A stretch of DNA of 64,000 nucleotides from Alphaproteobacteria bacterium (GTDB lineage: Bacteria; Planctomycetota; Phycisphaerae; UBA1845): contig JANQQE010000032.1 of assembly GCA_028285105.1 (NCBI GenBank), forward strand, positions 186,001 through 250,000, given 5' to 3'. The position numbers were made by a program, and so were the translations under genes. Of the stretch, positions 28,048 to 47,594 are shown one piece after another. How positions within the stretch are numbered: position 1 is the stretch's first letter; each line of letters begins with the position of its first letter. A model generated the notes under the pieces. The model was given only the letters and a program-made list of their open reading frames with translations, had not been told where the DNA came from and did not search any database.

Positions 28048-28168
28048 CAGAAGAGTTTCATAAACGAATAATTTGTTCCAAACATCCGAACGCGCCTGTA
28101 CGAAACAGTGCGTTGGCACGAACAATAGCTGACGACTAGGTCAACAAAGCCAATTAAGGTCAACAAAA

Positions 28169-29920
28169 ATGTCGGAACGCAAGATACCTCCGATCGAACA
28201 ACTGCGGGGCCGCCAACTCGGTCGAATCCTCATCAAAATGGGGAAAATCCGCCGCGCTGAAGTTCACGAAGCGCTCGAACTTCAAAAGGAACGTCGCCGT
28301 CCCATCGGATCGATTCTGGTCGAGTTGGCCCACATCACCGAAGAAGATCTGAACATCGCGCTTGCCGCACAAGTGGGTATGGAATTGACCAACGTTGCGG
28401 GGATGGATATTCCCGGCGAGATCATTGCGCTCGTTCCGCAACAGATGGCTGCGACATACCGTGTCATTCCGTTCGACTTCGATCCGAATACGAATCGACT
28501 CTCCGTGGCAATGGCATCACCCGACAACTTCCACGCCACCGACGACATGCAAACGCTCCTCGGTTTTAAGATCAAGGCATTCATTTGCACCGAAGGCGAA
28601 GTGCAAACCGCCCTCGATCGTTACTATCCCGAAGGTGGCGGCGAGTCGATGAGCGGTTTGATCGATGAGATTTCCGGCGATGAGGACCTGGCGAAGTTCG
28701 AAGGGCGCGGTGAGAGCATCGACCTTGAAGACCTTAAGGAGCTCGCCGACTCCAACCCGGTCAAGCGTTTGCTCAACCTCGTGCTGCTCCAGGCCATTCG
28801 CGACAAGGCGTCCGATATTCACTTCGAACCGTTCGAAGACGAATTTCAGATGCGCTACCGAATCGACGGTGTGTTGTACGACATGGTTCCACCGCCCAAG
28901 CACATTGCGGCGGCCATCGCTTCGCGCGTGAAGGTCTTGGCGAATCTCGACATCGCCGAACGCAGAATTCCGCAGGACGGCCGAATCGAGTTGCAGATGC
29001 ATGGCAACCCGATCGACCTGCGTGTGTCGATTCTGCCGACGATGTTTGGCGAAAGCGTCGTCATGCGTGTTCTCGATCGCAGCAACGTGCAACTTGACCT
29101 TGATCGCATTGGGCTGCGTGATGACGATCTGATGGTCTTCAATCAGTTGATTCGCAAACCGAATGGGATCGTCGTCAATACGGGGCCGACCGGTTCGGGT
29201 AAGACGACAACGCTGTATGCGGCGCTGAATGCGCTCAACGATCCGGAGACAAAAATTCTGACGGCAGAGGATCCGGTCGAATACGACATCGACGGATTGT
29301 GTCAGGTGCAGGTCCGTCCTGAAGTGGGATTGACGTTTGGCAAGGCGTTGAGGAGCTTTCTTCGTCAGGACCCGGACGTGATCCTGGTGGGTGAGGTTCG
29401 CGACCTGGAAACGGCTCAAATCAGCGTTCAGGCATCATTGACGGGACACCTGGTCTTTACCACGCTTCACACGAACGACGCTCCATCCTCGATTGCGCGA
29501 CTACTGGATCTGGGTTTAGACTCGTTCTTGATTACAGCCACACTTGAAGCAGTCGTGGCTCAGCGGCTTTGCCGTAAGATTTGTGCGAACTGCAAGACTG
29601 AGTTCACCCCGTCGGAAGAGATGCTGATGGAATTGGGGATTACGCCTGACGACATTGGCGATCAGCCGTTTTATTACGGTCGGGGTTGTGATTACTGCAA
29701 CAATACCGGTTATCGCGGACGAATTGGAATCTTCGAGATCATGGTGATGGACGATCACCTCCGCGAATTAATCATGCGACATGCTTCGTCGAACCTTCTC
29801 CGACAGGAGGCGATCAAGCGAGGCATGCGGACCCTCCGAGAGAGCGGGTTGGCGGCGATTTTTGACGGCCATACGACGATCGAAGAAGTGGTGAAAGAGA
29901 CCCTCTTCGACGAGAACTAA
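28169..29920 (+). CDS. GspE/PilB secretion ATPase, copy 2
   Basis: 583 residues, paralogous to the preceding gene over its whole length. AAGG lies 9 bases before the ATG. The N-terminal MshEN-type domain (LGRILIKMGKIRRAEVHEAL), the N2 domain (ASDIHFEPFEDEFQMRYRID), Walker A TGPTGSGKTTT near 338, EDPVEYDIDGLCQVQV, Walker B RQDPDVILVGEVRD and TGHLVFTTLHTNDAP are present. The four-Cys motif (CANC near 471, CDYCNNTGYRGR near 506) is kept. Both copies therefore look catalytically complete. Two neighbouring GspE-type genes may form mixed or alternative hexamers, or serve separate machines that share the downstream GspF; the sequence does not decide. It is too similar to PilB/GspE to be a PilT retraction ATPase, which lacks the N-terminal domain. 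Confidence 0.92.
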   Translation: MSERKIPPIEQLRGRQLGRILIKMGKIRRAEVHEALELQKERRRPIGSILVELAHITEEDLNIALAAQVGMELTNVAGMDIPGEIIALVPQQMAATYRVIPFDFDPNTNRLSVAMASPDNFHATDDMQTLLGFKIKAFICTEGEVQTALDRYYPEGGGESMSGLIDEISGDEDLAKFEGRGESIDLEDLKELADSNPVKRLLNLVLLQAIRDKASDIHFEPFEDEFQMRYRIDGVLYDMVPPPKHIAAAIASRVKVLANLDIAERRIPQDGRIELQMHGNPIDLRVSILPTMFGESVVMRVLDRSNVQLDLDRIGLRDDDLMVFNQLIRKPNGIVVNTGPTGSGKTTTLYAALNALNDPETKILTAEDPVEYDIDGLCQVQVRPEVGLTFGKALRSFLRQDPDVILVGEVRDLETAQISVQASLTGHLVFTTLHTNDAPSSIARLLDLGLDSFLITATLEAVVAQRLCRKICANCKTEFTPSEEMLMELGITPDDIGDQPFYYGRGCDYCNNTGYRGRIGIFEIMVMDDHLRELIMRHASSNLLRQEAIKRGMRTLRESGLAAIFDGHTTIEEVVKETLFDEN

Positions 29921-30027
29921 CGGTTGGGCTTGTCGAATTGGGGAAGAGCCCGATGTTGGCGTGGTGGTCCGTTCTTTTCCGTAGTCGTTTATATGCGATA
30001 TGCGTGCATGGACATTTGAATCGGGCC

Positions 30028-30071
30028 ATCATGTGGGTGCGTACATCTGGAGTACGTATCATGTGGGTACG
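30028..30071 (+). repeat. Two direct copies of ATCATGTGGGT(G/A)CG
   Basis: A 14-base sequence occurs at 30028-30041 and 30058-30071, differing at one base and spaced 30 bases (about three helical turns) apart. GTAC occurs twice between them. The site is upstream of gspF, in the 215-base gap after the second ATPase gene. It may be a pair of regulator sites; no known regulator was matched. Confidence 0.45.
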
Positions 30072-30093
30072 AGAGTTCAACCACTCGTTGGAG

Positions 30094-30127
30094 CCAAGTC
30101 AATTCTGAGGCCAAGATCATTCTGAGG
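30094..30127 (+). repeat. 17-bp tandem duplication containing the gspF ribosome site
   Basis: CCAAGTCAATTCTGAGG (30094-30110) is followed directly by CCAAGATCATTCTGAGG (30111-30127); 14 of 17 bases agree. The GAGG of the second copy lies 8 bases before the gspF ATG at 30136 and is the likely Shine-Dalgarno sequence. The first copy carries the same element at a non-functional distance. Confidence 0.6.
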
Positions 30128-30135
30128 TATGTGCG

Positions 30136-31386
30136 ATGGCAGTATTTCAATACGAAGCGATGAACCAAGCCGGTCAGGAGGTCAAGGATAATATCGACGC
30201 CTCCAGCGCCGAAGACGCTCTCGAGAAGATTCGTAATCTGGGCCTCTTTCCCACGCGCATTCGCGAAAAGGGCGGAAAGAAGAAAGGCGCTGCAACCGGC
30301 AAGAAGAAAAAAGGTGGATCGATCAGTTTCGGTAAGGCCAAGGTCAAGCACGTCACCCAGTTCACCCGACAGTTGGCCACCCTTCAGGATGCAGGCCTTC
30401 CGATTCTGCGAAGCCTCGGCATTCTCGCCGAACAGCAAAAACCGGGACCGCTTAAGAACGCATTATCCGAAGTTGCAGAAGACGTTGAAGGTGGTGCGAC
30501 GCTTTCCGAAGCAATGGCCAAGCACCCCAAGGCATTCAACCGTTTGTACGTCAACATGGTAGCCGCCGGCGAAACGGGTGGTGTACTCGACGTTATCCTC
30601 GTGCGACTGGCTGAGTTCATGGAAAAAGCCCAACGCCTCAAAGCCAAGATCAAAGGCGCGATGATTTACCCGTCGGTCGTGATCACCTTTGCGGTCGGTA
30701 TCGTGACGATGATCATGATCGTTGTGGTCCCGAAGTTTGAGGAAATCTTCAAGGACTTTGACACGGCGCTGCCCAAGGTGACACTGCTTTTGATCGATAC
30801 AAGCAAGTGGTTTGTCAATGGGATGCCGCCCGGCTGGCTCGTGGTTTTGGGTTCTCCCATTGCATTCATTATTTTCATGAAGCTGTTGAATCAATCGAAG
30901 GGCGGACGCTTTGCGAAAGATTCGGTGATCGTGAAGTTGCCGATTGCAGGCGGTATTTCGAGCAAGTCGTCGATCGCGCGATTCTGTCGTACGCTGGGTA
31001 CGCTGGTGACGGCTGGTGTGCCGATTCTTGAGGCGATCAATATCACCAAAGAAACTTCGGGTAATGAGGTGTACGCCCGGGCATTGGGCAAAGTCCACGA
31101 TTCGATTCGCGAGGGCGACACGTTTGCCGATCCGCTTCGGGCGTCGAAAGTATGCGACGGTATTGTCGTCAACATGATCTCGGTCGGTGAAGAGACCGGT
31201 GAACTCGACAAGATGCTATTGCGTATCGCGGATAACTACGACGACGAGGTCGAAGTCGCGGTCAGCGCGCTGCTGTCATTGCTGGAACCGATCATGGTGG
31301 CCGTCCTCGGTGTGATCGTCGGTTTCATCGTCATCGCGCTGTTCCTCCCGCTGGTTTCGCTGATTCAGTCGATGTCGGGTGGTTAG
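30136..31386 (+). CDS. gspF: GspF/PilC inner-membrane platform protein
   Basis: 416 residues. It is the polytopic platform protein that couples the ATPase to pseudopilin assembly. The N-terminal segment (VFQYEAMNQAGQEVKDNIDA) is the usual GspF start, followed by a Lys/Gly-rich linker near 45-65 that is longer than normal. Two GspF domains follow (FTRQLATLQDAGLPILRSL near 75-95 and FCRTLGTLVTAGVPILEAI near 280-300), each beginning a helical bundle. Membrane helices lie near 174-195 (YPSVVITFAVGIVTMIMIVV), 232-252 and 380-410 (LLEPIMVAVLGVIVGFIVIA). The normal length is about 400. Its only candidate ATPase partners in the window are the two upstream genes. It has a GAGG ribosome site within a tandem repeat. 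Confidence 0.94.
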   Translation: MAVFQYEAMNQAGQEVKDNIDASSAEDALEKIRNLGLFPTRIREKGGKKKGAATGKKKKGGSISFGKAKVKHVTQFTRQLATLQDAGLPILRSLGILAEQQKPGPLKNALSEVAEDVEGGATLSEAMAKHPKAFNRLYVNMVAAGETGGVLDVILVRLAEFMEKAQRLKAKIKGAMIYPSVVITFAVGIVTMIMIVVVPKFEEIFKDFDTALPKVTLLLIDTSKWFVNGMPPGWLVVLGSPIAFIIFMKLLNQSKGGRFAKDSVIVKLPIAGGISSKSSIARFCRTLGTLVTAGVPILEAINITKETSGNEVYARALGKVHDSIREGDTFADPLRASKVCDGIVVNMISVGEETGELDKMLLRIADNYDDEVEVAVSALLSLLEPIMVAVLGVIVGFIVIALFLPLVSLIQSMSGG

Positions 31387-31453
31387 AAAATAAGAAGCGA
31401 TATGACCGAGCGGCTCAGGGTCTTATCAAAAAAGCCAGTATGAGAGGTATGAC

Positions 31454-32413
31454 ATGAAGACAATGGCGCGTCGAAACGAAAAAGCCTTTACGTTGATCGA
31501 ACTGCTGGTGGTGGTTTCGATCATCGCACTGCTGATCGGGATTGCCTTGCCGTCGTTTAACAGGGCCCGTTTGCAGGCCAAGGTCGTCGACAGCAGGCAG
31601 GTGATCAGTAATTTAGAAGCCGGCATCGAAACCTATCGCGGCGAACGTGCGCTGGGCGGTAGAATCCCACCGTCCTCAAGCGATGCCGACCCCAACATCG
31701 GCACCATGGCATTCGATACGTACATTGATCCGCTCGACAATTCGGGGGCTGCGATTCCTTCCACTGGTGCAGGGCTCTTGGTTCTCGCATTGGCCGGTCC
31801 CGACAACCGGGGAACGGCGGGTTTTCGACCCGAGTCTCCCAATCAAACTTGGGCAGATTCCATCAGTGGGACCGGGTCGGGCGGGTTGTACGATTCAAGT
31901 CTTGGAACGCGTCCTGTGGAGGCCACACGCTACGGACCGTTTGCAGGCGCAACGGCAATGAAACGTATCTCGTCAGTCGCAGATTGCCGAAAGAGCGGAT
32001 TCCAAGAGCTGGCTTTCAGCGCCGAATTTGGAAGGCAAAAGGTCTTTTCAGATTTGTTCAACAGTCCGATTTTGTATTACCGAGCGCGAAAAGCCGCTCG
32101 TCGAATGGTAACCGACAACTCTCAAAACCCGCCGCTGATCGGGATTTACGATCACAGCGATAACGCTGCGCTGACATCCTTTACCGACTCGAAACATCGA
32201 ATCGCCGCAGCGTTTTCAGGAAACAATACTTACGCAAACCCTGCGATTTCGTTCGATTCGTTTATTATCGATCGCGAGGCGTCGGGTTGCGACGATGCCA
32301 ATCCTGCCAACTGCCTGCGAACGATCCCGTATCGACCGCAAGATTTCCTTCTGATTTCTGCGGGCCCAGACGGTATCTGGGGCAGCAAAGACGATGTAAC
32401 CAACTGGAAGTGA
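31454..32413 (+). CDS. Prepilin-leader protein, GspG-like pseudopilin
   Basis: 319 residues; AGAGG lies 6 bases before the ATG. A short basic leader (MKTMARRNEKA) is followed by FTLIELLVVVSIIALLIGIA, the type III prepilin signal: cleavage is expected before Phe12, with Glu16 at mature position 5. The N-terminal helix is followed by a long globular region. Near the end, LISAGPDGIWGSKDDV matches the Asp/Gly loop seen at the C-terminus of GspG-type major pseudopilins, where it can bind calcium. It is longer than the usual 140-residue GspG. It is the first of five leader proteins in a row and overlaps the next gene by one base (TGATG). Confidence 0.85.
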   Translation: MKTMARRNEKAFTLIELLVVVSIIALLIGIALPSFNRARLQAKVVDSRQVISNLEAGIETYRGERALGGRIPPSSSDADPNIGTMAFDTYIDPLDNSGAAIPSTGAGLLVLALAGPDNRGTAGFRPESPNQTWADSISGTGSGGLYDSSLGTRPVEATRYGPFAGATAMKRISSVADCRKSGFQELAFSAEFGRQKVFSDLFNSPILYYRARKAARRMVTDNSQNPPLIGIYDHSDNAALTSFTDSKHRIAAAFSGNNTYANPAISFDSFIIDREASGCDDANPANCLRTIPYRPQDFLLISAGPDGIWGSKDDVTNWK

Positions 32414-33315
32414 TGCCTACGATGCCAACGAATCCTGATGCAACGAGCAATAGCCGCAGTCTCTCGATTCGCAGCAGCGGTCGTGCATTTACGCTGATCG
32501 AAATCTTGGTTGTGGTGGCGGTGCTGGCGATCCTTATCGGCATGGCATTTCGTGGCGCAACGGCGATGACAGAATCGGCAAAAGTGCGCGAGACCGAAGG
32601 GCTGCTGCAAGCCCTGACGCAAGCGATTGATGCGTACAAGTTGGAAGTCGGGCAAAGTCGTGCAGGTGGAGGTGCGGTGGCGGTGCTGTACAACGGATCT
32701 CCTCCGGATGATTGGAGGGTGTTCACCTTTGCAGGCGCGAACTTGGCCGGAAACGTGGTCAAGATGGTCAGCGGAAATCCAGTCCTTCCCGATCTAACCG
32801 AAACAAGAGATGCGACTTCTGGCGCAATGACCAGCCCGAACGGTCGGAGTCATGGCGATGTTCGCGCGATGGTCTTGGCGATGCGTCTGCGGTCACCTAA
32901 GGCGAGCGAAATCCTCGACGGGATCAACGAGAAGTATCGGGTCAACGAAGGCAACCTTTTTTTCAATCCCGGCGACGGCACCGACCCCATTCCTCTGACA
33001 CACTATGTCGATGGATGGGGCACGCCGATCGAATACTTTTCGGTTTGTACATCTGCGACTTCAACCGACCCGCGCGAACGTGCGGCGTTTGGAATTGTCC
33101 ACAACAGTAATGTCGAAGCTGTTTTGGTGTCTTATGGGCCCAACGGCCCGGACCAGTTTACGGGCGATTTTTTCAATGATCCGGCGTATGGCGACACCAG
33201 TGTGATTTCAGATTTCAACGGAGGGTGTACCAACTGCACTGTTGGCAAGATCGATCATATCCTGAATCAGGACAACATCTATTCGTCTGAGACGCTCAAG
33301 GAACGGATGAAGTAA
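32413..33315 (+). CDS. Prepilin-leader protein 2
   Basis: 300 residues from the ATG at 32413, whose first base overlaps the previous stop; a second ATG at 32422 is also possible. A basic leader of about 24 residues ends SSGRA, followed by FTLIEILVVVAVLAILIGMA (cleavage expected before the Phe). The helix continues through AKVRETEGLLQALTQAIDAY. The C-terminal half has GTPIEYFSV, a GPNGPDQFTG loop resembling the GspG calcium loop, and a CTNC pair. The best guess is a minor or second major pseudopilin. It is translationally coupled to the preceding gene. Confidence 0.82.
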   Translation: MPTMPTNPDATSNSRSLSIRSSGRAFTLIEILVVVAVLAILIGMAFRGATAMTESAKVRETEGLLQALTQAIDAYKLEVGQSRAGGGAVAVLYNGSPPDDWRVFTFAGANLAGNVVKMVSGNPVLPDLTETRDATSGAMTSPNGRSHGDVRAMVLAMRLRSPKASEILDGINEKYRVNEGNLFFNPGDGTDPIPLTHYVDGWGTPIEYFSVCTSATSTDPRERAAFGIVHNSNVEAVLVSYGPNGPDQFTGDFFNDPAYGDTSVISDFNGGCTNCTVGKIDHILNQDNIYSSETLKERMK

Positions 33316-33376
33316 CGATCGTACGAGGCAGATCGTGTCAATCAACGGTTGCAGATAGAGAGGGACTTTGGCATTC

Positions 33377-34342
33377 ATGCAGCAAAGAATTCGACAATCC
33401 AACACGAAGAATCGTTCTTTCGGGGTGCGACTTCGTGCATTCACCCTCATCGAGTTGATTGTCGTCATCGCGATCATCGGTATCCTGTCGGCGCTGGTGG
33501 TTCCTGGTGCTTCGAGTCTTTGGTCGCAGCGCAACGAAGCCGCCTCAGCCAATCTGATTCGCGGGCTTTTGCAAAGTGTGCGGACCCAAGCGATTCGCTA
33601 CGGCGAACGCGGTTTGTTTTTCTATGTCGATCGGGATGGTGCGCAGCGGATTGCGTTCATTGAAGCCGACCCTTCGTTCGGTGGAACCAGTACCCGCGAC
33701 CAATTCGATTGCACGAACATCAGCGAGCCGACCAATTGCGTGTCCGAGCCCGGTGCGGCAAATCGCTTTCGCGTGATCGATCAGCAGGTGTATACCGTGC
33801 CGTCGCCGTTTCGCGTTGCACCCAGTTGGGCACTTTATCCCGACAATGCGCCATACAATCCTAACCTCGTCGGTGTTTGGCCGCAGCAACTCACCAACGA
33901 ACGATTTCCGATTCAAACGCGCGGGGCTGACACGCCGCTCTACCATCGCAATTTCTTTACGATCGTCTTCGATTCCACCGGAAGCCTGGTGGTGAACCGT
34001 CCGGTGTTGATTCACGATATTGATACCGAGAACGACGGATTGGGCGATCGCACGCGTTTGGATGTCGCCGATGTCGATGAGTGGTGGAAATTTTCGCCAG
34101 GTGACGCTGCCGCAACGCAACCGGATGTCGATCCCATCAACGGAAACCCGTTGTTTGACATTGTGGCCCTTGATAATGGCACTGGAGCCAATTTCATCAG
34201 CGTTGACGGACTCGTGGTGTACGACGATTCTGACATTGAGGGACTCGATGGTGCCTCGATTCGAGCGGTGATGGAGCGCGACGGGCAATCGTTGTTCGTA
34301 AGTCGCTACACCGGCGAAGTGATTTTCGGACCCAAGGGCTGA
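33377..34342 (+). CDS. Prepilin-leader protein 3, GspH/FimT-like
   Basis: 321 residues from the ATG at 33377 (a TTG at 33368 would add three). A leader of about 20 residues ends RLRA, followed by FTLIELIVVIAIIGILSALV and then NEAASANLIRGLLQSVRTQA, the arrangement typical of GspH/FimT minor pseudopilins, in which the helix is followed by an Arg-containing second helix and a beta sandwich. GSLVVNRPVL and IRAVMERDGQSLFVSRYTGE near the end fit the last strands. GspH proteins are usually about 150-200 residues; the extra length is in the middle and is rich in Asn, Pro and Asp. Confidence 0.8.
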   Translation: MQQRIRQSNTKNRSFGVRLRAFTLIELIVVIAIIGILSALVVPGASSLWSQRNEAASANLIRGLLQSVRTQAIRYGERGLFFYVDRDGAQRIAFIEADPSFGGTSTRDQFDCTNISEPTNCVSEPGAANRFRVIDQQVYTVPSPFRVAPSWALYPDNAPYNPNLVGVWPQQLTNERFPIQTRGADTPLYHRNFFTIVFDSTGSLVVNRPVLIHDIDTENDGLGDRTRLDVADVDEWWKFSPGDAAATQPDVDPINGNPLFDIVALDNGTGANFISVDGLVVYDDSDIEGLDGASIRAVMERDGQSLFVSRYTGEVIFGPKG

Positions 34343-34365
34343 TCGCTGGGCGAAAGACTGGGCGG

Positions 34366-35913
34366 ATGATGCGTTTGCAGATGAATCACATTCCGGCTCG
34401 ACCGGCGTCGCGACACGGCGTTTCAAGACGTCGAGCGTTCTCGATGACCGAGATGGTCTTTGCCATTTTCATTCTCGGGCTGGGGTTGTTGTTTACCTCC
34501 AGCATGTTCCCAATCGCCTGGATCAAAGCCCGCGCTGTCCATGAGACGACCAACACGCGGTCGTGTACAGCGGCTGGCGCGAATATGTTCGAGCGCGTCT
34601 CCAGGGTTAACGGACCAAGGGACCTTCAGTTTTCCAACTCGACATTCTTTCCGGTTGACTGGTTTCCTGCCGATCCCGACGACATCACCAAACCGATCGT
34701 CTTTCCAAACACCCGCGTTCATGCAATGAACCTTGGAAACTATAAGGCCGCACCCTATTGCGGAACGTTTGAAACGGACGAACTCAACGGTGGCGGCGAC
34801 GACGTTCCAGTCGGAAGTTCCAGTTGGCATCTTTCGGATCAGTTGACGTATTGGATGGGCGATTCGGTGTTTGTGAGCAACATCATTGCTCCGGCGCTGA
34901 TTAAAAGTCGGTTCTACACAGCCAGCACCTATGCCCGCGATCGATTGTTCCCGCCGCTGGACGAACGGCCCGACCCGGCTGACGCAACGTTGGATACAGC
35001 CCGAGCCCTCTGGGACGAACAATTTGCCGGTCGGCGATATTGCTGGGCGGTATTGTATCGGTTCAGCCGCATGTACGGACCGGACGTATCTATCGATCCG
35101 CTCGACCCGTTTGAATTGGTCTACGGGATGAACTGCACCGGAGCGTCGCAATCGCCTGAGTGTGTGTTGGCCAATGAAGAAGTGCGTCAGACGTTGGCCA
35201 AACCTCGCGAAATGACGGTTTATTACGTCACGCTAAAGCGCCCCGATAACGCGCGATATGCCAAACAGGAAGCGTTGGTGGGTTCGGGCGGAACGGCAAC
35301 GTGGAATCCGAGTAAGCGTCTGGATCATCCGCGCGCCTTGCCGAGTACTTCCGACGTATTGCTGCCATCACCTTGGCGGATTCAAGGGTCTTTGACGGCG
35401 ATTCCTGCGATCGGGGCTGCTCCGACTGGCATACCTTCCGAAATCAGCGTCAACGATATTGTGCTGGCAGAGATGCTCGCACCAAAGACGGTGTTGATCG
35501 ACGAGCGTAACGGTCAGATTTACCGCATCACGCAGCGCCGCAACTCGACAACCAATCCGGCTGCGGTTGTCCTGGTTCTGGATAAAGAGTACACCGCCGG
35601 CGATATTTACCGCCCCGACTATGATTTGTTTCCCGCCGACTACGACGGTGCCGACAGTCTGCACGAGAATTGGAAGAACGAATGGGAATGGATCGAACGA
35701 GACTGCGACAATCTTGATTTGACCGACAGTTCGATTCCAAACGTGAGCGATTGTTTGAATATCATCGAGGACGAGCCTGAGAAACGTTACTACTGGGTTT
35801 TTCCACCGCCCGTGGAAACGCAACGCGCGGTTGCCGACGTTCCAATCTATGCCGGTTCGCCTCCTGTCGTCGATATTGAAACGCGCCAAGTGGTGTTGCG
35901 GCCAAGGCGATAG
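34366..35913 (+). CDS. Prepilin-leader protein 4, PilV/GspI-like
   Basis: 515 residues (ATG-ATG at 34366/34369, and another ATG at 34381). A basic leader ends SRRRA, followed by FSMTEMVFAIFILGLGLLFT, so the mature protein would start with Phe and keep Glu5, with Met in place of Leu. The hydrophobic helix is followed by AWIKARAVHETTNTRSCTAA. The large C-terminal region has scattered Cys residues and EWIERDCDNLDLTDSSIPN-type acidic stretches, and no further recognised domain. Its position between the GspH-like and GspJ-like genes fits GspI/PilV. It is much longer than GspI in proteobacteria (about 120). Confidence 0.75.
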   Translation: MMRLQMNHIPARPASRHGVSRRRAFSMTEMVFAIFILGLGLLFTSSMFPIAWIKARAVHETTNTRSCTAAGANMFERVSRVNGPRDLQFSNSTFFPVDWFPADPDDITKPIVFPNTRVHAMNLGNYKAAPYCGTFETDELNGGGDDVPVGSSSWHLSDQLTYWMGDSVFVSNIIAPALIKSRFYTASTYARDRLFPPLDERPDPADATLDTARALWDEQFAGRRYCWAVLYRFSRMYGPDVSIDPLDPFELVYGMNCTGASQSPECVLANEEVRQTLAKPREMTVYYVTLKRPDNARYAKQEALVGSGGTATWNPSKRLDHPRALPSTSDVLLPSPWRIQGSLTAIPAIGAAPTGIPSEISVNDIVLAEMLAPKTVLIDERNGQIYRITQRRNSTTNPAAVVLVLDKEYTAGDIYRPDYDLFPADYDGADSLHENWKNEWEWIERDCDNLDLTDSSIPNVSDCLNIIEDEPEKRYYWVFPPPVETQRAVADVPIYAGSPPVVDIETRQVVLRPRR

Positions 35914-36015
35914 TGCAAAGCAGATCGATCATTTGTTTACGCCCAGCATCTGGCGTGTTTCTTGTAACTCTTGAAGCATTCCTGAAGATGAAGACTTGAA
36001 TTTGAAGATTGATTA

Positions 36016-37590
36016 ATGGGTTTGGTATTTTCAACATCCAATAGTTCGCTGCCGACAAGTTTGCCGATTGCCATGGCGCGCCGCAGTGCTTTTACGCTGG
36101 TCGAACTCGTCGTCTCGGTTGGTATCCTCGGCATCATGCTGGTGATGGCAGGTGCGATCTTCACGCTGACGCTCCGGTCGTCTGGCGAGGCCAATGCGAT
36201 CATCGAAGTCAGCCAAGCCCAGCGCGTATTTGAAGACACGATCACCAATGACCTGCGCAACACCGGACCGGGAAAGTCGATCCTGGTTATTCAGGGCAAT
36301 CCGACTCCGGCATACATGACCATCGACGAGCTCGAAGTTGACAATGATGGCAACCCGGCCACGCCGCTGGTTCGCGATCCAACGCGCGAGTATGTGGATG
36401 GTGCCGGAAACATCCTGCACGAACTGCCGCGTGCCGACATTTTGATGTTCTTCACAACGAAGCCGGGCAAGAGCTATCGCGATCCTTCAATTGGCGGACA
36501 CATTCAGCAAGTGGTTTACGGTCACGCGGAACTGGGCATCTGGAATGACAACGGGACTTGGCAACGCCCTCCCATTCCGTTTCCGACGATCGACTCGTTC
36601 GATGCATTCGACCCCAACGATCCGCCGGTTCCCAACGCTCCGTTCGACCCGACGCGGTTTCCGGCAGCGCACGATTGGCATTTGGCGCGGCGCAGCGTTT
36701 TGATTCTCGATCAGTCCGGTCCGTTCGCCAATGCGCTGCCGGCAGTCTCGCTGGACGATTCGGCGGTGGTGCTCGGTGGCAGCGACGATGAATTGAAGTA
36801 TTCGGCTGAAGCGGCAGCGAATCGCATTCGCGATGGCCGTCGGGATTTTGTCACGAATTCGGTCGTTGACACGCTCAACAGCACGAACAATCCGACCGAG
36901 GATTTTCGCTATCGCGATTACATTCTCGAGATGACGCCGCGCGACGAGTTCAGCATCGGGTATGAGGTGGCGCTCGATCCGAACGATTGCTGCGGGGCAG
37001 CGAATACGTATCCGAGCTTTACGTCCAACCAATTTGAAGTGCCGGAGAACTTTCGTCATTGGATCGTGCCGTGGTTTGCCCGGTCGCAGATGGACCCCAA
37101 CCCACCGCAGAGTCAGGCGGAACGATTGGGCCATCACTTCCTGCAGAATTGTGCCGGATTCAAGGTGGAGTGGGCGCTGACGTGGACGTCCGAAACCGAT
37201 CCGGTCGTAAAGGAATGTCTGGCACTGTTCGACGACACCATCTGGGTCGATCCAGCCGACATCAGCGCGACGGCAGATTTGATCGACGACAAAATCACCG
37301 AGTTGAACGCCGATCCAGCGCAGGCCGGCGCACTGGCATTGTGTGGAGAGTCGGGTGATCCGCTCGATCAGTTGGTCCAGTTGTTCACCGATCCCCTCGG
37401 TCGTTTCAATTCGCAGATCATGGGTACCACGCACATGTTCTACGCGAAGAACCCCAACCCGGCATCGAGCAGCAGTCAGGCCGATCCATTCTTTCCCTCG
37501 GCGCTTCGCATCACGATCGATTTGTACGACACGTCTTCGCGGCTTGAACGTCCGATCCGTCATGTGATGATCGTTCCGGTCGACGGTTGA
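36016..37590 (+). CDS. Prepilin-leader protein 5, GspJ/PilW-like
   Basis: 524 residues from the ATG at 36016; an ATG at 36073 (MARRSAFTLVELV) would leave only a six-residue leader and is also possible. The leader ends RRSA, then FTLVELVVSVGILGIMLVMA, with Glu5 present. The following helix is GEANAIIEVSQAQRVFEDTI. GspJ/PilW proteins share this layout. The long C-terminal part contains many Asp/Pro-rich segments and a CC pair (DPNDCCGAANTYPS). It is the last of five leader genes and is followed by an 843-base gap before the GspK-like gene. Confidence 0.78.
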   Translation: MGLVFSTSNSSLPTSLPIAMARRSAFTLVELVVSVGILGIMLVMAGAIFTLTLRSSGEANAIIEVSQAQRVFEDTITNDLRNTGPGKSILVIQGNPTPAYMTIDELEVDNDGNPATPLVRDPTREYVDGAGNILHELPRADILMFFTTKPGKSYRDPSIGGHIQQVVYGHAELGIWNDNGTWQRPPIPFPTIDSFDAFDPNDPPVPNAPFDPTRFPAAHDWHLARRSVLILDQSGPFANALPAVSLDDSAVVLGGSDDELKYSAEAAANRIRDGRRDFVTNSVVDTLNSTNNPTEDFRYRDYILEMTPRDEFSIGYEVALDPNDCCGAANTYPSFTSNQFEVPENFRHWIVPWFARSQMDPNPPQSQAERLGHHFLQNCAGFKVEWALTWTSETDPVVKECLALFDDTIWVDPADISATADLIDDKITELNADPAQAGALALCGESGDPLDQLVQLFTDPLGRFNSQIMGTTHMFYAKNPNPASSSSQADPFFPSALRITIDLYDTSSRLERPIRHVMIVPVDG

Positions 37591-38433: not shown

Positions 38434-41400
38434 ATGATGAGAAATACTTTGGCCCATTTGAATAGTGCAGCGTCTGGGACGGTTGATGGCTGGAGTGCTT
38501 CTCCAGTGACATCTGCTAACCGTCGCACGCGCCAGCCGGCTGTTGTGCTTATCATGGTCGTGGCCCTGTTGGCGATTCTGTTCGTATCCGGTGCAGCACT
38601 TCTGACGACAGTGACGTTTGAAACCAAAACGCTGGAGGTCGTTCGCGAAACGAATCAGAATGAGGTGATGGTCGCAGCCATTGAGCAGGCCATCTTTGAA
38701 GTGTTGGCCAAGAGCTTTCTCGGTCCGGATGGACTGCCTTACAATCCTCAACTAAACGCAGTCGTGGACGCCAATGGCAATGCCGTACTGCCAACTTTCG
38801 GTGAAGCGCCCGGTATCCACCCCTGGTTCAATTTGACCGAACCGCAGGAGGATGGGACGACAGCCCGCATCGCATTCTATTCCGATTTTGAACGTGCGTT
38901 TGCGGGCCGGACCGGTTTGGCAATTGCTTCCGGGATGAACGTTTCCGACATAGACCGACGTCAAGTTCCGATCGTATTCGACCAGTCATTCGTCGACCTC
39001 GACATTAACGACTACAAAACGAACATCGGTTACGACCCGCTCGACCCCATCGTCGCCGAGCCCAATCTCGTGCGAATGCAGGATGCGGATGGCGATGGCA
39101 TTCCCGATTCGATCGCGGTCAACCTCAGCGACGCGATGCTCCCACCGGACATCAAAGCGGCTGTGTCGGAACGTTTGCGCGATCCGAATCAACTGAATCC
39201 CAATGATCCCGATGCGTTGTGGCTAGCGCTTAAGATTGTTCCGCATGGATCGATGGTGAATCTCAATTCGCGCATTCCGTACTGCGATGTACTGAGCATT
39301 CCGGGCAACGAGTATTACCCGGATACGTTGGTCGAAAATGCGCTGGGTTATTCCGACTTCATTTGGCAGAACCGCCTGACCAATGGCGAAATCAGTGCGG
39401 CATATCTGCCTGAGTCGCACGAGTGGGCGCTGCGTAACCGCGGGATGATGGTTCCGCGCAATATTCCCCAAGCGCGTATGTTTGCGGAACTCGCCGACCG
39501 GTTGCTGTATCCGCATTCGACGTTAACGCAGACACACACACCGACCACGGACTTCTTTAGCAGTACCAATCGTCGCTGGTGGCAGTTCGATTCGGCATCG
39601 CTGCCCGATTACAACACAAGCACCTGGCGACAGATGCTCGATCCGGTTGGAACCGGTTCGTCGGCACCGTACGATCGCTCGCATTTGGTCACCACGATCA
39701 ATCATGACGACAACTTAATCCGATCGGCGACGGTTGGCGGTGTGGACATGATTGTCGACATCGGTAGCAACGGCAATTATGCATGGAGCAACTATCCCGA
39801 CTTCCTGCCAACGGGCGATCCGCGCAAGGGGCGTTTGAAGTTTTCGTTCCCGTATTTCAGCAAGACGCAGTCCGAGGGCGGCTGGCTGCCCGATGGTACG
39901 ACGCTCGACACGTTGACACCGGCCAAGAAAACGGAACTCGCGACCCTGATTCAGGATGCGTTCTTTTTGCAATTGCGTGGTTATGCGGGCGTCGTGGATT
40001 TTGACACGAACGGTACGGTAGAGCAGCCGGGCGACGTATTCGCGGGCGACAACAGAATGATTTCGATCATGGCTGCGATGTTGGCCGCCAACCTGATCGA
40101 CTTCGCCGACAACGATACCGCAGGCGATATTCCCGACGAACCGACAATGGTGGAAGTGCGCGATTGGCGAACGGGTTTGGTCGATCCGGCAGAACCGGAT
40201 CTGAAAGTGTATGGACTTGAACGCCAGCCGTTTATTACGGAAGTATTGATTGATATGCCGGCACCGATCCCGGGGCCACCACCTTCGCAGTTTGACCCAG
40301 GTGGCACTGTCTTTGCCGTTGAAATTTACAATCCGTACGACGTTGCAATCGATCTTTCGGCGTTCTCGCTGAGTGATGTCGGAACAAGGCCAGGACCGAT
40401 GGTTGTGGCACAGTCGGTCGCAGGCGGTGGTGCAAACTTGGTGCCATTCACTGACGAGCCGCTCGGCGGAATTCTTGCACCGCGGAGTTTCGCAGTTTTT
40501 CATGGTTACGGCAGTGCTGCGGGCGCACCTGGTGCCGTTCAACTCGGCGCGGATCGAGCATTTGATCTCAATAGCATCATTGCATTGCAACGAGATGTAA
40601 ATGGTGACAACGTTATTGTTGATCAAGTCGATCTGGGCGCTGTTGCCGCCGAGTTTATCCGTGAAGAGATACTTGGTACACCTATCGATACTTTGACGGA
40701 ACTTCCTAATTTATCCGACCCATCTGAAACAGGGAATTTAGAGGCATCGATCCAACGCGACACAACTGAAAACGCCTGGCGTTTTCCTGTACCAAGGTAT
40801 CGATACAGTGCGCAGGTCAATTACCAAACGCTGGGCATCGACAACTCCACTCAGGCAACGACGGTCGATGCGAGCATACGTTCGGTGCATATCGATTTCG
40901 CCGACACGGGCGTCATGCGCACTGCATACCCCACGACGGGGTCGATGTTGCTTTTGATGCGGCATGCTCATCTCGATGATGGTACGACCAGCGTTCCGTT
41001 CAACCATGTGCATGATTCGTTGATGGCCCAGCAATTCCGACTCATTGACAATGGCCGCATGCCGGTGTTCGATGAGACCTTCAAATACCATGTGGCCCCC
41101 TCGCCAGATAATGAAGTTGCGCAGGGAGTCGCCGCATTGCCCTGGGGTCAGTTGGTATTCGATTACTTTACGGCCCTTCCGCTTCGCAGCGAGAACGTGC
41201 CCTGCAACGATCCAAACCTTCAGGCGCTACAGGGTTATCCGCCAGTAGACATGGATGGATTGCGGGTATCGGGCCGCATCAATCTGAACTCCGCGCCGTG
41301 GTCGGTACTCTCCGGCTTACCGCTGATGGACATGGACAAGTTCAACATGCCCGATGCGGCTGGCAGCATGAAGGATAAGATTCGCGCGGCGTTGTATCCG

Positions 41401-42009
41401 GGGGCACTGCCCAAAGCCAAACGTGCTTCAGATGAATCCGACATCAACCTTCCGATTTCGGATCAGCCGGGAGAGATCGGTCGCGAGTTTGCCCAGGCGA
41501 TTGTTGCCTACCGCGATGCACGGTTCATTCCAAGTGTCGATCCGCTTATTGCAGCCAGTGTCAGCTACGGTCCACAGCGCGGACCGACGACGGGCGGTTT
41601 GCGAACGAAGCGAGCCGGTTACGGTTTCCTGTCTGTCGGCGAATTGCTGAACGTTCGTCATCCGGATGCAGCCAGCGCAGGCGATTGGTTCTACAACGCT
41701 GATGTCGGTGCTGTGGCCAACGGTGGCGATTACGTGTCAGCCGTCGCGCGGATGGTCGCACTGGGCGATTGGGTCACGACGAAGTCGCACGTGTTTACGA
41801 TTTACGGGACGGTTCGCGGGCAATTCATGGAAGATTATGCCAATGCGGGAACGCGACAGGCTTCGCGAGCCAGCCTGCATACCGTCGATCAAAAAGCGAT
41901 TCGTTTCCAAACCACAGTCGATCGACTGCCGATGCTCTTCGGGCAAACCAAACCGACACGCATCGGGTCGCGGATGATCAGCCAGTATTCGGACGTTCGC
42001 TCAGAATAG
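38434..42009 (+). CDS. gspK: Very large GspK/PilX-like protein
   Basis: 1191 residues. After a 35-residue Arg-rich head, one hydrophobic helix (PAVVLIMVVALLAILFVSGA, about 36-55) lacks Glu5, as in GspK and PilX. The next helix, VVRETNQNEVMVAAIEQAIF, continues the pilin-like rod. Near residues 946-960 the segment GRINLNSAPWSVLSGLPLMD matches the GspK helix-hairpin-helix signature (INLNxAxxxxLxxLP). GspK is normally about 320 residues, so this protein is over three times longer; the extra part lies mainly between the rod and that motif (about 120-940). It contains acidic DADGDGIPDSI and DFDTNGTVEQPGD calcium-loop-like stretches. In other bacteria GspK caps the pseudopilus tip with GspI and GspJ, matching the genes before it. 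Confidence 0.8.
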   Translation: MMRNTLAHLNSAASGTVDGWSASPVTSANRRTRQPAVVLIMVVALLAILFVSGAALLTTVTFETKTLEVVRETNQNEVMVAAIEQAIFEVLAKSFLGPDGLPYNPQLNAVVDANGNAVLPTFGEAPGIHPWFNLTEPQEDGTTARIAFYSDFERAFAGRTGLAIASGMNVSDIDRRQVPIVFDQSFVDLDINDYKTNIGYDPLDPIVAEPNLVRMQDADGDGIPDSIAVNLSDAMLPPDIKAAVSERLRDPNQLNPNDPDALWLALKIVPHGSMVNLNSRIPYCDVLSIPGNEYYPDTLVENALGYSDFIWQNRLTNGEISAAYLPESHEWALRNRGMMVPRNIPQARMFAELADRLLYPHSTLTQTHTPTTDFFSSTNRRWWQFDSASLPDYNTSTWRQMLDPVGTGSSAPYDRSHLVTTINHDDNLIRSATVGGVDMIVDIGSNGNYAWSNYPDFLPTGDPRKGRLKFSFPYFSKTQSEGGWLPDGTTLDTLTPAKKTELATLIQDAFFLQLRGYAGVVDFDTNGTVEQPGDVFAGDNRMISIMAAMLAANLIDFADNDTAGDIPDEPTMVEVRDWRTGLVDPAEPDLKVYGLERQPFITEVLIDMPAPIPGPPPSQFDPGGTVFAVEIYNPYDVAIDLSAFSLSDVGTRPGPMVVAQSVAGGGANLVPFTDEPLGGILAPRSFAVFHGYGSAAGAPGAVQLGADRAFDLNSIIALQRDVNGDNVIVDQVDLGAVAAEFIREEILGTPIDTLTELPNLSDPSETGNLEASIQRDTTENAWRFPVPRYRYSAQVNYQTLGIDNSTQATTVDASIRSVHIDFADTGVMRTAYPTTGSMLLLMRHAHLDDGTTSVPFNHVHDSLMAQQFRLIDNGRMPVFDETFKYHVAPSPDNEVAQGVAALPWGQLVFDYFTALPLRSENVPCNDPNLQALQGYPPVDMDGLRVSGRINLNSAPWSVLSGLPLMDMDKFNMPDAAGSMKDKIRAALYPGALPKAKRASDESDINLPISDQPGEIGREFAQAIVAYRDARFIPSVDPLIAASVSYGPQRGPTTGGLRTKRAGYGFLSVGELLNVRHPDAASAGDWFYNADVGAVANGGDYVSAVARMVALGDWVTTKSHVFTIYGTVRGQFMEDYANAGTRQASRASLHTVDQKAIRFQTTVDRLPMLFGQTKPTRIGSRMISQYSDVRSE

Positions 42010-42305
42010 TGTGCCCCAATCGAAGCGCGTGCAAAATCGCCTGCTTCGGTACTTCGTCCGATCATCGATCTTGATTCGCCACTGTATCTGTTACGATCTC
42101 GCTTGATCGGCGAGATGATTGGGCGGTCAATACATTCCTTCGTTTTGATTGTCGATCACAATTCAGACACGTCTCGTGTGCGGATCGTACCGGAAGTCCA
42201 TGCATTGCTGCGTCCACCGGTAAGCGCCGCGCGCCAACGTCCGAAAAGCGAAGCAAAAACACGGTAATCTCGCACATTTTGTAGTCGCCGGTTGTCTCAT
42301 GTGCG

Positions 42306-42336
42306 GTAGCTTCGCGATATCCGGGTTGCTATAATG
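42306..42336 (+). promoter_or_regulatory. Probable sigma-70-type promoter with extended -10
   Basis: A perfect TATAAT at 42330-42335 preceded by TGC (extended -10, TGCTATAAT). The -35 region is weak: GTAGCT at 42306-42311 with an 18-base spacer is the best candidate. Transcription would start near 42342 and read through the hairpin region into the Cys-rich protein gene, or end as a short RNA. Confidence 0.6.
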
Positions 42337-42337
42337 A

Positions 42338-42403
42338 GAGACAATCTGCTGTCTGTATCAAAGGGGTTGGGGTGACCCGGGGAAGGAAGCTCCATCCAAC
42401 AGC
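42338..42403 (+). ncRNA. Candidate structured RNA (SRP-like hairpin or mRNA leader)
   Basis: Directly after the promoter, AGACA/TGTCT (42339-42354) can form a small hairpin. Alternatively GCT..AGC (42348-42350 with 42401-42403) closes a longer hairpin whose upper part is GTTGG-GG paired with CC-AT-CCAAC (42366-42372 with 42392-42400), with an internal loop and a CC-GGGGAA-GG cap. The GGAAGGAAGC stretch and the layout of stems and loops resemble domain IV of bacterial SRP RNA, but the conserved GUCAGG and AGCAGCC sequences are missing. I do not assign a family; it may be a 5' leader of the following gene. Confidence 0.3.
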
Positions 42404-42477
42404 GAAGTCATCAAGCTTTAATCAATTTAGCGGTCAAAAGAGACCGGTCGAAGTCAAATCAACTTGGGAACGTGACA

Positions 42478-45400
42478 ATGCGCACATGGTGTAACAGGAT
42501 GTGGGGAGAGCAGGCAAAGCGAGGAATATGGATGCGTTCGGTGATTACCGTTTCGGTGCTGGCGCTGTCCGCGCTGGTGGTCAATGCAGCCGACCCGGAT
42601 GCAGGCAAACCAGATGCGACCAATCCGGCTTTGGGGAACGAAAAGCAAACCTTGAATGCGGTCATCATTGGCGGGTCCGATGTCGCGGTAGCAGAATATG
42701 GCCCTGACCCGTTGATTGGCTTAACGGATTTACCTGATGCGTCGCCGCGACCTTATGACTATACGGGCGATCCGGAATTCTTGCGCGCGGCAGAAGAGTG
42801 TTGTCCAATCGGAATCACGAGTCAGCAACCCGCCCTGGCAACGTTTTTTCATGGAAACGTCATTGAAATCGAAGAAGAGGCTGTTCTGACCGAGATTCAA
42901 ATCGAACTCGACTTCAATTTTCAAGCCGACCTGACCTACGTCGTGTATCGACGCGACATGGGCGCGACGGCATACACACCCATTTTTGTGCAGGTTGCTG
43001 CCAAGAATGGAACGGGGTTGGGACTGTACACGCTCGACATTCCGTCGGGCCTGACCCTTACACCCAATTTGAATGCCGGTGTGCCACAACCCACGCGCTT
43101 TTTGGTCGGTATCGGTTGGGATGAAGCGCAGTCCATTACGTTCTCGCGCGACAACGTCAACGGTGACGGACCATTTTGCCGTGGTGAAGCGCTGGGTTAT
43201 TGGGGCATTAACACGGCTCCTCCTGCGCCGCCCGTCGGTTCCGTACCGGAACTTTCGGTGTCGATTTTTTCCGGCGCCGTGATGGTGATGGAACTCTGTT
43301 TTGAAGTGCCACCAGGAGCATGTTGCGACGGTAATGTTTGCAGCGTGGTCGATGAAGCGGCATGCACAGGGACGTTTTCCGAACCCGGTACGTCGTGTGA
43401 CGACATAACCTGCCCATTGCCGCAGGGGGCATGCTGCGTTCCGCCGGATACCTGCATCTTTACAAATGAATTTGCGTGTGCAAACGATTTCGGAGGAACG
43501 TTCGATCCGACCGAAACGTGCGCGATTCCCAACCCCTGCGCCGAACCGTTCGGGGCGTGCTGCTTCTTCGATGGCACTTGCGGCGATGATCTGACGGTTG
43601 GCGAATGCACGGCGATGGGCGGAACGTACAACGGCGATTTCTCGGTTTGCTCAGCGACGACTTGTCCTGAAACGGGCGCGTGCTGTTTGCTCGAATCGGG
43701 TTGCTTGCAGCAGGAAAGCGCCGGCGATTGTACGTCGATTGGCGGCGTGAGTTTTCAGGGTTTGGGAACGCATTGTCAGGATCCGCCGCTCTTCCCGTTG
43801 AATCCCTGCAATGACACCGTTCTTGGTGCATGCTGTCGTTACGACGGCACATGCGAGGACGGTGTGGAAGAGTTCGATTGCGAAACGTCGCAGTTGGGCC
43901 AAACACCGGGAATCTGGAAGGGTGAAGGTACGTCTTGCGATGTGCAGACGTGTGATGTGCTGGGCGCGTGTTGTGAGGATTCGATGACGTGCAGCGACAT
44001 TGCCGAAGACGATTGCAATTTAAATTTCTTTACATGGTCCAAAGGGCAGCCCTGTCTTTACGACCCATGTGGCGCGACAGTCGGCGCTTGCTGTGTATTT
44101 GGCGAATGCAAGATTCTGAATTCCTTCGACTGTTTGCAAGCCGGCGGAATCTTTGAGAACGTCGGAACGAACTCCTGGCGCGCTTGCGAATTGGCTTCAC
44201 CTTGTACCAACGCGATGCAGGGGGCGTGCTGTCTGCCCGGTGGCGAATGCAAGATTCAATCGCCCGCGGAGTGTGCCAATTCAAACGGAATGTATGACGG
44301 TGACGGGACGTCTTGTGCCGCACTTTCATGTGTGACCGGTGTCTGCTGCGACGCTGGAGACGTTTGCACCGAAGAACGCCAGTTGGATTGTATCGGATTG
44401 GGCTCGACTCCAGGCGAACCCGGAACGGCCTGTGACGACAACCAAGCCAACCCCTGTATCCCCAGCGGGGCGTGTTGCTTCGACGACGGAAGTTGCGAAA
44501 TCCTGAACGAAACCGGATTGGTACCGCAGTGTTCATCGATGGGTGGCACATATCAAGGCGACGATACGCTTTGTGACGCTGCCGCCTGCCCCGAAGTCGG
44601 GGCGTGTTGTTCTGAAATCGTGCCCGGCTTTTTTGCTTGTGAACAAGACGTTTCTGAACCAGATTGTTTGTTGCGGCCTTTCGGTACGTTCGGTGGTTTT
44701 GGCAGCGACTGCACTGGAAGTCCATGCGATCAAGGGGCGTGTTGTGCGATTGACGCCTCATGTACCGAAACATCGCGACTCGCATGCGAGACCGACGCAT
44801 TAGCCGAATTCCAGGGCGATGGAACGCAGTGCGGACCGGACGTTTGCGAACCGCGCGGAGCTTGCTGCGACAACGGCTCATGCTCCGTCGTTACTGAAGA
44901 TGTCTGCACCAATGGTGGCGGGAAATACCTCGGCGATACGACGGTTTGCGGACCCAACACCTGCGACACAGCCCCTTGCTGCGTCAATGGCCAATGCAAA
45001 GATCTGTTCCCGGATGAATGCACGACGTCAAACGGCGTGCAGGGGACGTTGGGTGAACTGTGTTCCAGCGGCGACTTCTGCACGGATGGTGCGTGCTGCC
45101 TAGGTACCAGTTGCTTTGTCAGCGCCGGGCTCCACGAGTTGCAGTGTAATGTGCTGGGCGGATCGTTTGTCGGTCCTGGAAGCGATTGCAGCGGTGACCC
45201 GTGCGCTCCGGAGACAGTGGGGTGTTGCGTGCCCGGCGGAACGTGTCAGGATCTGACGGAAGCCGGATGCTCGGGAGTGAACGGCGTTTCACTCGGAGCG
45301 GGTTCCGATTGTGCGACGAGCAATGCGTTTTGTACTGCCGAGTTCGGTGCCTGCTGCCGACCGGGTGACGTTTGCTTTGCTGACGACACGCCAGCGAATT

Positions 45401-45987
45401 GTGCAGCACAGGGTGGATCGTTCCTGGGTATCGGTGTCGATTGCTCGGGAAATCCGTGTGCCACAACCGGGGCCTGTTGCGAACTTGATGGCGGCTGCAT
45501 CGATGGCGGGACGCAGGGTGATTGCGATTTGATCGCCGGTGGAGTCTTTACTGCCGGATTGCCTTGTTCGTCTGTGGCTTGCCCGGATGTTTGCGGCGGG
45601 ATTCTGCCGGCAGATTTCGACGACGATGGCGATGCCGATCTTGAGGACTACGCTGCCCTTCAGATTTGCATGGGCGCACCGACGCCGGACAACAATTGTT
45701 ACTGTGCGTTCGACATCGATACCAACGGATTGTTCGAACAAAGCGATCTCGATGTGCTTCTGCCGATCTTCAACGGTTGCCTGGCGTTTGCATTGCAGGA
45801 CTCCGGTGACTTCAACGATGACGGCAAGGTCGATCTAATTGACTTCGCATCGATGCAATCGTGCGTCGCGCCGGGATTGACGCCTCCCGATCCGCTGGCT
45901 TGTCGCTGCATCTTCGATGCTGACTTCAGTGGCGTTGTTGACGATGGCGATGCTGGTGCCTTCATCACAGAAATGCTCGGCCCGTAA
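42478..45987 (+). CDS. Exported Cys-rich GACC-repeat protein with calcium-loop C-terminus
   Basis: 1169 residues from the ATG at 42478 (a GTG two codons earlier is less likely). A signal peptide covers about residues 1-38 (SVITVSVLALSALVVNA). A beta-rich N-terminal domain (about 90-275) includes ITSQQPALATFFHGNVIEIE. From about 43310 to 45590 there are 18 tandem repeats of about 42 residues, each starting GACC or a variant (GVCC, APCC, VGCC) with about six Cys: GACC-x5-C-x7-C-x3-GG-x5-GT-x-C-x4-C. Disulfides would fit outside the cell. The end (45601-45984) holds four calcium-type loops, DFDDDGDAD, DIDTNGLFE, DFNDDGKVD and DADFSGVVD, in two dockerin-like pairs. It follows the secretion genes and may be a substrate. 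A strong terminator follows. Confidence 0.85.
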   Translation: MRTWCNRMWGEQAKRGIWMRSVITVSVLALSALVVNAADPDAGKPDATNPALGNEKQTLNAVIIGGSDVAVAEYGPDPLIGLTDLPDASPRPYDYTGDPEFLRAAEECCPIGITSQQPALATFFHGNVIEIEEEAVLTEIQIELDFNFQADLTYVVYRRDMGATAYTPIFVQVAAKNGTGLGLYTLDIPSGLTLTPNLNAGVPQPTRFLVGIGWDEAQSITFSRDNVNGDGPFCRGEALGYWGINTAPPAPPVGSVPELSVSIFSGAVMVMELCFEVPPGACCDGNVCSVVDEAACTGTFSEPGTSCDDITCPLPQGACCVPPDTCIFTNEFACANDFGGTFDPTETCAIPNPCAEPFGACCFFDGTCGDDLTVGECTAMGGTYNGDFSVCSATTCPETGACCLLESGCLQQESAGDCTSIGGVSFQGLGTHCQDPPLFPLNPCNDTVLGACCRYDGTCEDGVEEFDCETSQLGQTPGIWKGEGTSCDVQTCDVLGACCEDSMTCSDIAEDDCNLNFFTWSKGQPCLYDPCGATVGACCVFGECKILNSFDCLQAGGIFENVGTNSWRACELASPCTNAMQGACCLPGGECKIQSPAECANSNGMYDGDGTSCAALSCVTGVCCDAGDVCTEERQLDCIGLGSTPGEPGTACDDNQANPCIPSGACCFDDGSCEILNETGLVPQCSSMGGTYQGDDTLCDAAACPEVGACCSEIVPGFFACEQDVSEPDCLLRPFGTFGGFGSDCTGSPCDQGACCAIDASCTETSRLACETDALAEFQGDGTQCGPDVCEPRGACCDNGSCSVVTEDVCTNGGGKYLGDTTVCGPNTCDTAPCCVNGQCKDLFPDECTTSNGVQGTLGELCSSGDFCTDGACCLGTSCFVSAGLHELQCNVLGGSFVGPGSDCSGDPCAPETVGCCVPGGTCQDLTEAGCSGVNGVSLGAGSDCATSNAFCTAEFGACCRPGDVCFADDTPANCAAQGGSFLGIGVDCSGNPCATTGACCELDGGCIDGGTQGDCDLIAGGVFTAGLPCSSVACPDVCGGILPADFDDDGDADLEDYAALQICMGAPTPDNNCYCAFDIDTNGLFEQSDLDVLLPIFNGCLAFALQDSGDFNDDGKVDLIDFASMQSCVAPGLTPPDPLACRCIFDADFSGVVDDGDAGAFITEMLGP

Positions 45988-46012: not shown

Positions 46013-46053
46013 GAGGCCATGCTCGGAAGAAATCGAGCATGGCCTCCTTTTTT
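46013..46053 (+). terminator. Rho-independent terminator after the Cys-rich gene
   Basis: GAGGCCATGCTCG (46013-46025) pairs perfectly with CGAGCATGGCCTC (46034-46046) around an 8-base loop, followed after one C by six T (46048-46053). On the minus strand the hairpin is followed by TTTAAT, so it may also stop transcription of the convergent vWA gene. Confidence 0.93.
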
Positions 46054-47386: not shown

Positions 47387-47594
47387 GAGTGTTCTCCAAA
47401 AGCGTGACAGGTAGCGGGCCAACTTCAGCAATCGTTTGGTTGCACTACTTTGGACACGCGGGCGAGCGGACGGTTCCCGACAGGAAGTGAGATTTCTGCG
47501 GAGGATTTAGAAGTAGGTGTGGGTTCGCCTTTATCGCAGGGGAAAATGGCGATTGCAATTCTGTCACGCCAACGTCACATGAGATGGTTGAGGC

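Follow-up and report, generated by a model that had tools for sequence, protein, structure and literature searches.

An array of six-cysteine modules beside a GspE/GspF-type secretion cluster in Phycisphaerae resembles a module of the animal iRhom homology domain

The repeat gene and its surroundings

The window analysed here is a stretch of 64,000 nucleotides from contig JANQQE010000032.1 of assembly GCA_028285105.1. It contains a gene for an exported cysteine-rich repeat protein of 1169 residues that lies directly after a secretion cluster on the same (+) strand; the order upstream is GspE, GspE, GspF, five prepilin-like genes and a gene for a pseudopilin-like protein of 1191 residues (Table 1). 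The latter protein has no match in Pfam or NCBIfam. The start codon of the repeat gene is placed at the ATG at 42478, which the congeners keep, rather than at the GTG at 42472, which is not kept among them, and the stop codon occupies positions 45985-45987.

Table 1. Positions of the repeat gene, its parts and flanking signals, and the secretion genes upstream (window numbering).
Feature	Position	Strand	Basis
Two GspE/PilB-type ATPases with MshEN domains, GspF and five prepilin-like proteins	26284..37590	+	Pfam, NCBIfam
Giant pseudopilin-like gene (1191 aa), putatively GspK-like	38434..42009	+	Adjacency in the family
Promoter-like block ending in TGCTATAATG, extended -10 type	42299..42336	+	Alignment of four species
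G-rich leader element, GGGGTTGGGG...GGGGAAGGAAGCTCC	42363..42399	+	Alignment of four species
Repeat gene, whole: exported 18-repeat Cys-rich protein (1169 aa)	42478..45987	+	Sequence; congener orthologues
Signal-peptide-like N-terminus, residues 1-38, ...MRSVITVSVLALSALVVNAAD	42478..42591	+	Judged from the sequence itself
N-terminal domain, residues 108-279	42799..43314	+	Profile, family genomes
18 tandem six-Cys modules, residues 280-1036	43315..45585	+	Repeat count; AlphaFold models of modules
C-terminal region, residues 1037-1169, with two dockerin-like calcium-loop pairs in tandem	45586..45984	+	Pfam Dockerin_1; kept in orthologues
Intrinsic terminator, 14-bp stem and T6	46013..46052	+	Terminator scan

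The protein opens with a signal-like N-terminus, followed by a domain of about 170 residues (the N-domain) with conserved Cys at both ends and the motifs (Y/F)(R/H)GN and Gly-x-x-Trp, for which a Pfam search gave no match and a PDB search no significant match. The repeats number 18, are 37-50 residues long (mean 42) and contain exactly six Cys in every case (18/18), giving 108 of the 121 Cys in the whole protein. The C-terminal region adds eight Cys and two tandem dockerin-like units, one unit lying narrowly above the Pfam Dockerin_1 (PF00404) cut-off (23.7 versus 22.9 bits). These counts bear out a preliminary description of the locus, which had reported 18 repeats of about 42 residues with about six Cys each, about 110 Cys in all and two dockerin-like calcium pairs, and which had taken the protein to be exported and its gene to follow the secretion cluster directly on the same strand.

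The same description gave the gene a promoter and a terminator of its own. The terminator is the best of the region. The promoter stood only in part: no full sigma-70 match was found upstream of the gene in a promoter scan, yet an alignment of four species shows a conserved upstream block that ends in TGCTATAATG at 42327-42336. The G-rich leader, also kept in four species, sits between this block and the start codon; a riboswitch there was rejected after an Rfam search without a match in 42363-42399. Convergent with the repeat gene is a gene for a vWA-domain protein (46091-47431, - strand), and a vWA homologue in another genus (L125:9683-10795) lies a few genes past an N-domain gene that has no repeats.

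Conservation of the array within the genus

Complete 18-repeat orthologues with the same neighbours are present in three congeners, and in a fourth the gene is split over two contigs; the C-terminal dockerin-like region is conserved among the orthologues. The one congener pair that allows dS to be estimated gives a dN/dS of ~0.07. Because of this ratio and the three 18-repeat orthologues, the open reading frame at 42478-45987 is a genuine gene and not a product of chance. In three comparisons between species, each repeat (18/18) is closest to the repeat with its own number, the identity at the same position being 0.78-0.84 between congeners versus 0.32 between positions. Since the repeats keep their order in this way, every position is under its own selection. 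Judged from these comparisons, the array is old and its repeat number fixed within the genus, with selection acting position by position; a recent expansion of the repeats was rejected, as the positions are old within the genus. All six Cys are retained in 1085 of the 1097 complete repeats collected, and the spacing in most of 400 repeats is CC-x4-6-C-x7-8-C-x12-14-C-x4-6-C. Apart from Cys and Gly, the module sequences are highly variable.

Distribution and domain company of the module

The preliminary description had recognised no named domain in the repeat. This stands in so far as the repeat has no match in Pfam, NCBIfam or PHROGs, the search of the whole protein against the PDB left the repeats unmatched, and a pair of consensus repeats gave chance-level matches in Pfam (best E 0.098). 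TIL and EGF, the known domains that it had named, were looked for in Pfam, and these or another known domain were rejected because no such family lies above the cut-off; a phage origin was rejected after the PHROGs search. What does not stand is the lack of any counterpart, since the repeat corresponds to a module of the animal iRhom homology domain (see below).

The survey of genomes with an HMM of the repeat, which had been suggested in the same description, shows that the module is spread through a lineage. It occurs in 38 of the 40 genomes of the order and, at the stricter threshold of E 1e-5, in 21 of 392 genomes taken phylum-wide, about half of which belong to the window's own class; the best 80 records are mostly Phycisphaerae MAGs, together with Ca. 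Eisenbacteria, Zixiibacteriota and Bipolaricaulota. At E 1e-3 the window's own genome holds 57 copies, spread over at least 14 ORFs, and modules co-occur there with multicopper oxidase, astacin, matrixin, Ig-like, lamin-tail and pseudopilin domains.

Several individual proteins may be mentioned. One prepilin-type protein (L095:4817-7132; C1:147816-150131 of the window's genome) combines an N-terminal methylation motif with two six-Cys modules, beyond which lie other Cys-rich repeats that weakly match acid_disulf_rpt. Exported-looking proteins from another class of the phylum (L127, L165), and a further one (L128), contain little beyond a signal-like start and 13-15 near-uniform modules. The astacin and matrixin metalloproteases that carry the module (L090:2430-4196, C7, and L094:3484-5556, C32, both of the window's genome) draw interest from the fact that the counterpart in iRhom handles a metalloprotease, ADAM17.

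Match to the iRhom homology domain

When a single-repeat profile was searched against 177,635 distinct PDB sequences, only iRhom1 and iRhom2 were retrieved at E-values up to 10 (E 5.4e-4 to 1.3e-3); a partial second copy of the module was matched earlier in each iRhom domain. The ranking was the same with a three-repeat profile, which again found iRhom1 and iRhom2 only (E 0.025-0.4). The alignment of the repeat profile to iRhom, in which the spacing is CC-x6-C-x7-C-x13-C-x4-C, contains a single one-residue gap, and the matched module spans residues 564-608 of iRhom2 (PDB 8snl) and 592-636 of iRhom1 (9xy4, 9q7y). The eukaryotic sequences covered by this comparison are those in the PDB. A likeness through Cys alone is rejected by a control in which the Cys were fixed and all other residues shuffled (3000 shuffles, both profiles): for module 2 of iRhom1 and of iRhom2 no shuffle scores as high as the real sequence under either profile, and for the partial module 0 or 4 of the 3000 do, depending on the profile. 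In the reverse direction, the iRhom modules gave 28 matches among 7763 ORFs, 27 of them to repeat proteins (which make up 151 of the 7763); because this ORF set came from repeat searches, the result measures specificity against unrelated ORFs and is not a blind survey.

Structure modelling of the repeat, likewise suggested in the preliminary description, led to the same counterpart. AlphaFold2, supplied with alignments of more than 100 sequences, gave confident models of three repeats (pLDDT 86.3) and of one repeat (pLDDT 90.9). With both models, iRhom chains ranked first in Foldseek among 350,542 chains at E-values that exceed 1, and the single-module match (TMq 0.72, 44 columns, 2.2 Å; E >1) is by itself too weak for a firm fold assignment. 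Superposition on iRhom with VIA-align gave a Z of 3.8-4.2 for 44 of 45 residues at 2.2-2.3 Å, too low for a firm fold assignment at this length. The sequence and structure alignments share their register, with the CC pair at iRhom2 571-572. ADAM17, which appears in the title of the top Foldseek entries, was rejected as the matching chain, as a sequence search shows that the chain is iRhom. It is the sequence statistics, and not the structure scores, that carry the weight of the match. Taken together, the computations show that each module shares its Cys spacing with Cys module 2 of the iRhom homology domain and matches it significantly by profile; the predicted fold is probably similar too. 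The resemblance concerns the module and not the function: neither sequence nor Pfam gives a rhomboid match or a membrane core in the 1169-residue protein and, because a rhomboid core is absent, the protein is not an iRhom and shares with iRhoms the module only.

The iRhom homology domain contains eight disulfides, and neither the PDB nor the predicted human proteome was found to contain relatives of it (PMC11248996); its fold has been described as unique (PMC10148629), and a review terms the domain mysterious and describes iRhoms as conserved in metazoans (PMC6451368). We found no literature linking iRhom and Planctomycetes on this point, and mentions in closed journals remain possible. As a tentative reading, the animal domain may have derived from a secreted bacterial six-Cys module, two of which an animal ancestor would have acquired and placed in a rhomboid; Phycisphaerae and a few other bacteria would then be still using the module in long tandem arrays. 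Convergence, which we regard as rather unlikely, would mean that small three-disulfide folds, having few options, came independently to a similar spacing and topology. It draws on the size of the module (only ~40 residues), on the modest structure scores, on the lack of a traced chain of intermediates and on the description of iRhoms as conserved in metazoans (PMC6451368). Set against this are the significant E-value, with no other PDB protein reaching E 10 even though Cys-rich proteins are plentiful there, the contribution of the non-Cys residues seen in the shuffles, the presence of two copies per iRhom and the exact x7/x13/x4 spacing. The iRhom domain, supposedly one of a kind, would gain bacterial relatives by this match, which opens its origin to study, and over a thousand natural variants provide a way to study the module by itself.

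Family-wide link to the secretion cluster

The N-domain and module array were found directly downstream of the pseudopilin-like gene, on the same strand, in 21 genomes of the family beyond the genus itself, fifteen from a first set and six fetched solely as a test; in this independent test of the adjacency all of the genomes were positive (6/6). The spacing between the two genes is 139-802 bp in 20 genomes, and in the remaining one the ORF calls overlap. The family homologues have 6-35 repeats, a Cys content of 9-12% and N-domains that are 21-30% identical to that of the window. One copy of the N-domain per genome was found by profile in most family genomes, and elsewhere in the order it is absent or distant; at one locus (L125) the N-domain gene lacks any repeat. 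The link to the secretion genes, first noticed in the window alone, is old because the repeat gene adjoins the pseudopilin-like gene in the 21 further genomes. Seven family genomes have the pseudopilin-like gene but no adjacent repeat gene, so the cluster does other work as well; a genome-wide search with the N-domain profile found no N-domain in five of the seven (G007, G023, G436, G431 and G017). The genes downstream, vWA and ispG, are not kept past the genus, save one vWA case. The gene order is best read as the sign of a durable functional tie between the repeat protein and the secretion cluster.

We consider it unlikely that the adjacency is a matter of inherited gene order only, the repeat protein leaving the cell by another route. 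The promoter-like block and terminator of the repeat gene would agree with such independence, as would the secretin genes, which are present in the genome but lie away from the GspE/GspF cluster; adjacency by itself is no proof of export of the protein through the cluster. However, the adjacency has survived the wide divergence of the N-domains while vWA and ispG were not kept, and in the five genomes named above, where the neighbour is missing, the N-domain is absent rather than moved.

Two of the prepilin-like proteins (33368-37590) show weak similarity, under the NCBIfam cut-offs, to proteins C and D of the Verru_Chthon cassette of Verrucomicrobia, and the 1191-residue gene may be a large member of a cassette of this type. 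In another family of the order, proteins of ~2600-2700 residues (L126, L230 and L231) lack the repeats but contain, towards the C-terminus, a distant copy of the N-domain.

Proposed role of the repeat protein

An oxidising folding pathway, which the preliminary description had expected from the Cys content, agrees with the presence in the same genome (C15; L234:3001-4542) of a gene for a VKOR-DsbA-like fusion with CPGC in its thioredoxin domain; this fusion is the likely source of disulfides for the repeat protein.

We think it probable that the repeat protein is an exported, disulfide-stapled surface rod that serves as a partner or cargo of the upstream GspE/GspF/pseudopilin system and is oxidised by the VKOR-DsbA fusion. 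The rod would start with the signal peptide and the family-specific N-terminal domain, continue with 18 small modules, each held by three disulfides, and end in a dockerin-like tail that binds calcium. It would be, as the family-wide adjacency suggests, a partner or even the main cargo of the secretion system. It would be oxidised outside the cytoplasm and be displayed at the cell surface as a stiff spacer that resists proteases, as an adhesive or as a protective fringe, docked to the envelope through its tail or N-terminal domain. The surface or crust-like layer for which the preliminary description had allowed is at best a conjecture. Its export may follow c-di-GMP, as expected of an attachment protein, because both GspE/PilB-type ATPases carry MshEN/c-di-GMP-type domains (Pfam, NCBIfam).

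By analogy with iRhom, the module array might instead bind or inhibit proteases, guarding or presenting secreted enzymes, which we judge distinctly improbable. The iRhom domain contacts both the metalloprotease ADAM17 and its prodomain, modules are fused to astacin and matrixin metalloproteases in the window's genome, and one module is weakly similar in structure to the leech tryptase inhibitor LDTI (Z 2.4). The sequences of the modules nevertheless vary widely outside Cys and Gly, and no special tie to proteases is indicated because modules are also fused to multicopper oxidase, Ig-like, lamin-tail and pseudopilin domains. Cys acting as metal ligands in a metallothionein-like store without disulfides, an idea that the very high Cys content invites, is very improbable in view of the export of the protein, the VKOR-DsbA fusion, the strict six-Cys topology and the oxidised state of the iRhom counterpart with its eight disulfides (PMC11248996). 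Identity with the disulfide-rich wall protein of classical planctomycetes, suggested by proline- and cysteine-rich, disulfide-stabilised envelopes reported from Planctomyces in work cited in PMC3035269, is scarcely credible because most of the phylum lacks the module: at E 1e-5 it occurs in 21 of the 392 genomes, and about half of these belong to the window's class.

As a surface rod or otherwise, the new element here is an uncatalogued domain, present in dozens of copies per genome across an order, whose largest array is tied to a secretion cluster throughout a family.

Comparison with known systems

The modules of EGF, TIL and LDL-receptor class A are about 40 residues long, contain six Cys and form tandem arrays in extracellular proteins. 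The repeats of the window share this size, Cys number and tandem arrangement with them, but neither Pfam nor the PDB profile search gives a match. The tail resembles type I dockerins in its C-terminal paired calcium loops, with a Pfam match barely above the cut-off, and differs from them in having two units in tandem and extra Cys. Chlamydial OmcA and OmcB are disulfide-rich envelope proteins from the same superphylum that are cross-linked between proteins, whereas the repeat modules are probably bonded internally. The closest likeness is to the iRhom homology domain, with which the repeats have in common the Cys spacing, the profile match, the register and a probably extracellular, oxidised setting, each iRhom domain containing two copies. 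That domain is a loop between two membrane helices, has long inserted loops and binds ADAM17, whereas the window protein presents 18 modules (6-35 in the family) head to tail in a soluble, exported bacterial protein without a rhomboid core.
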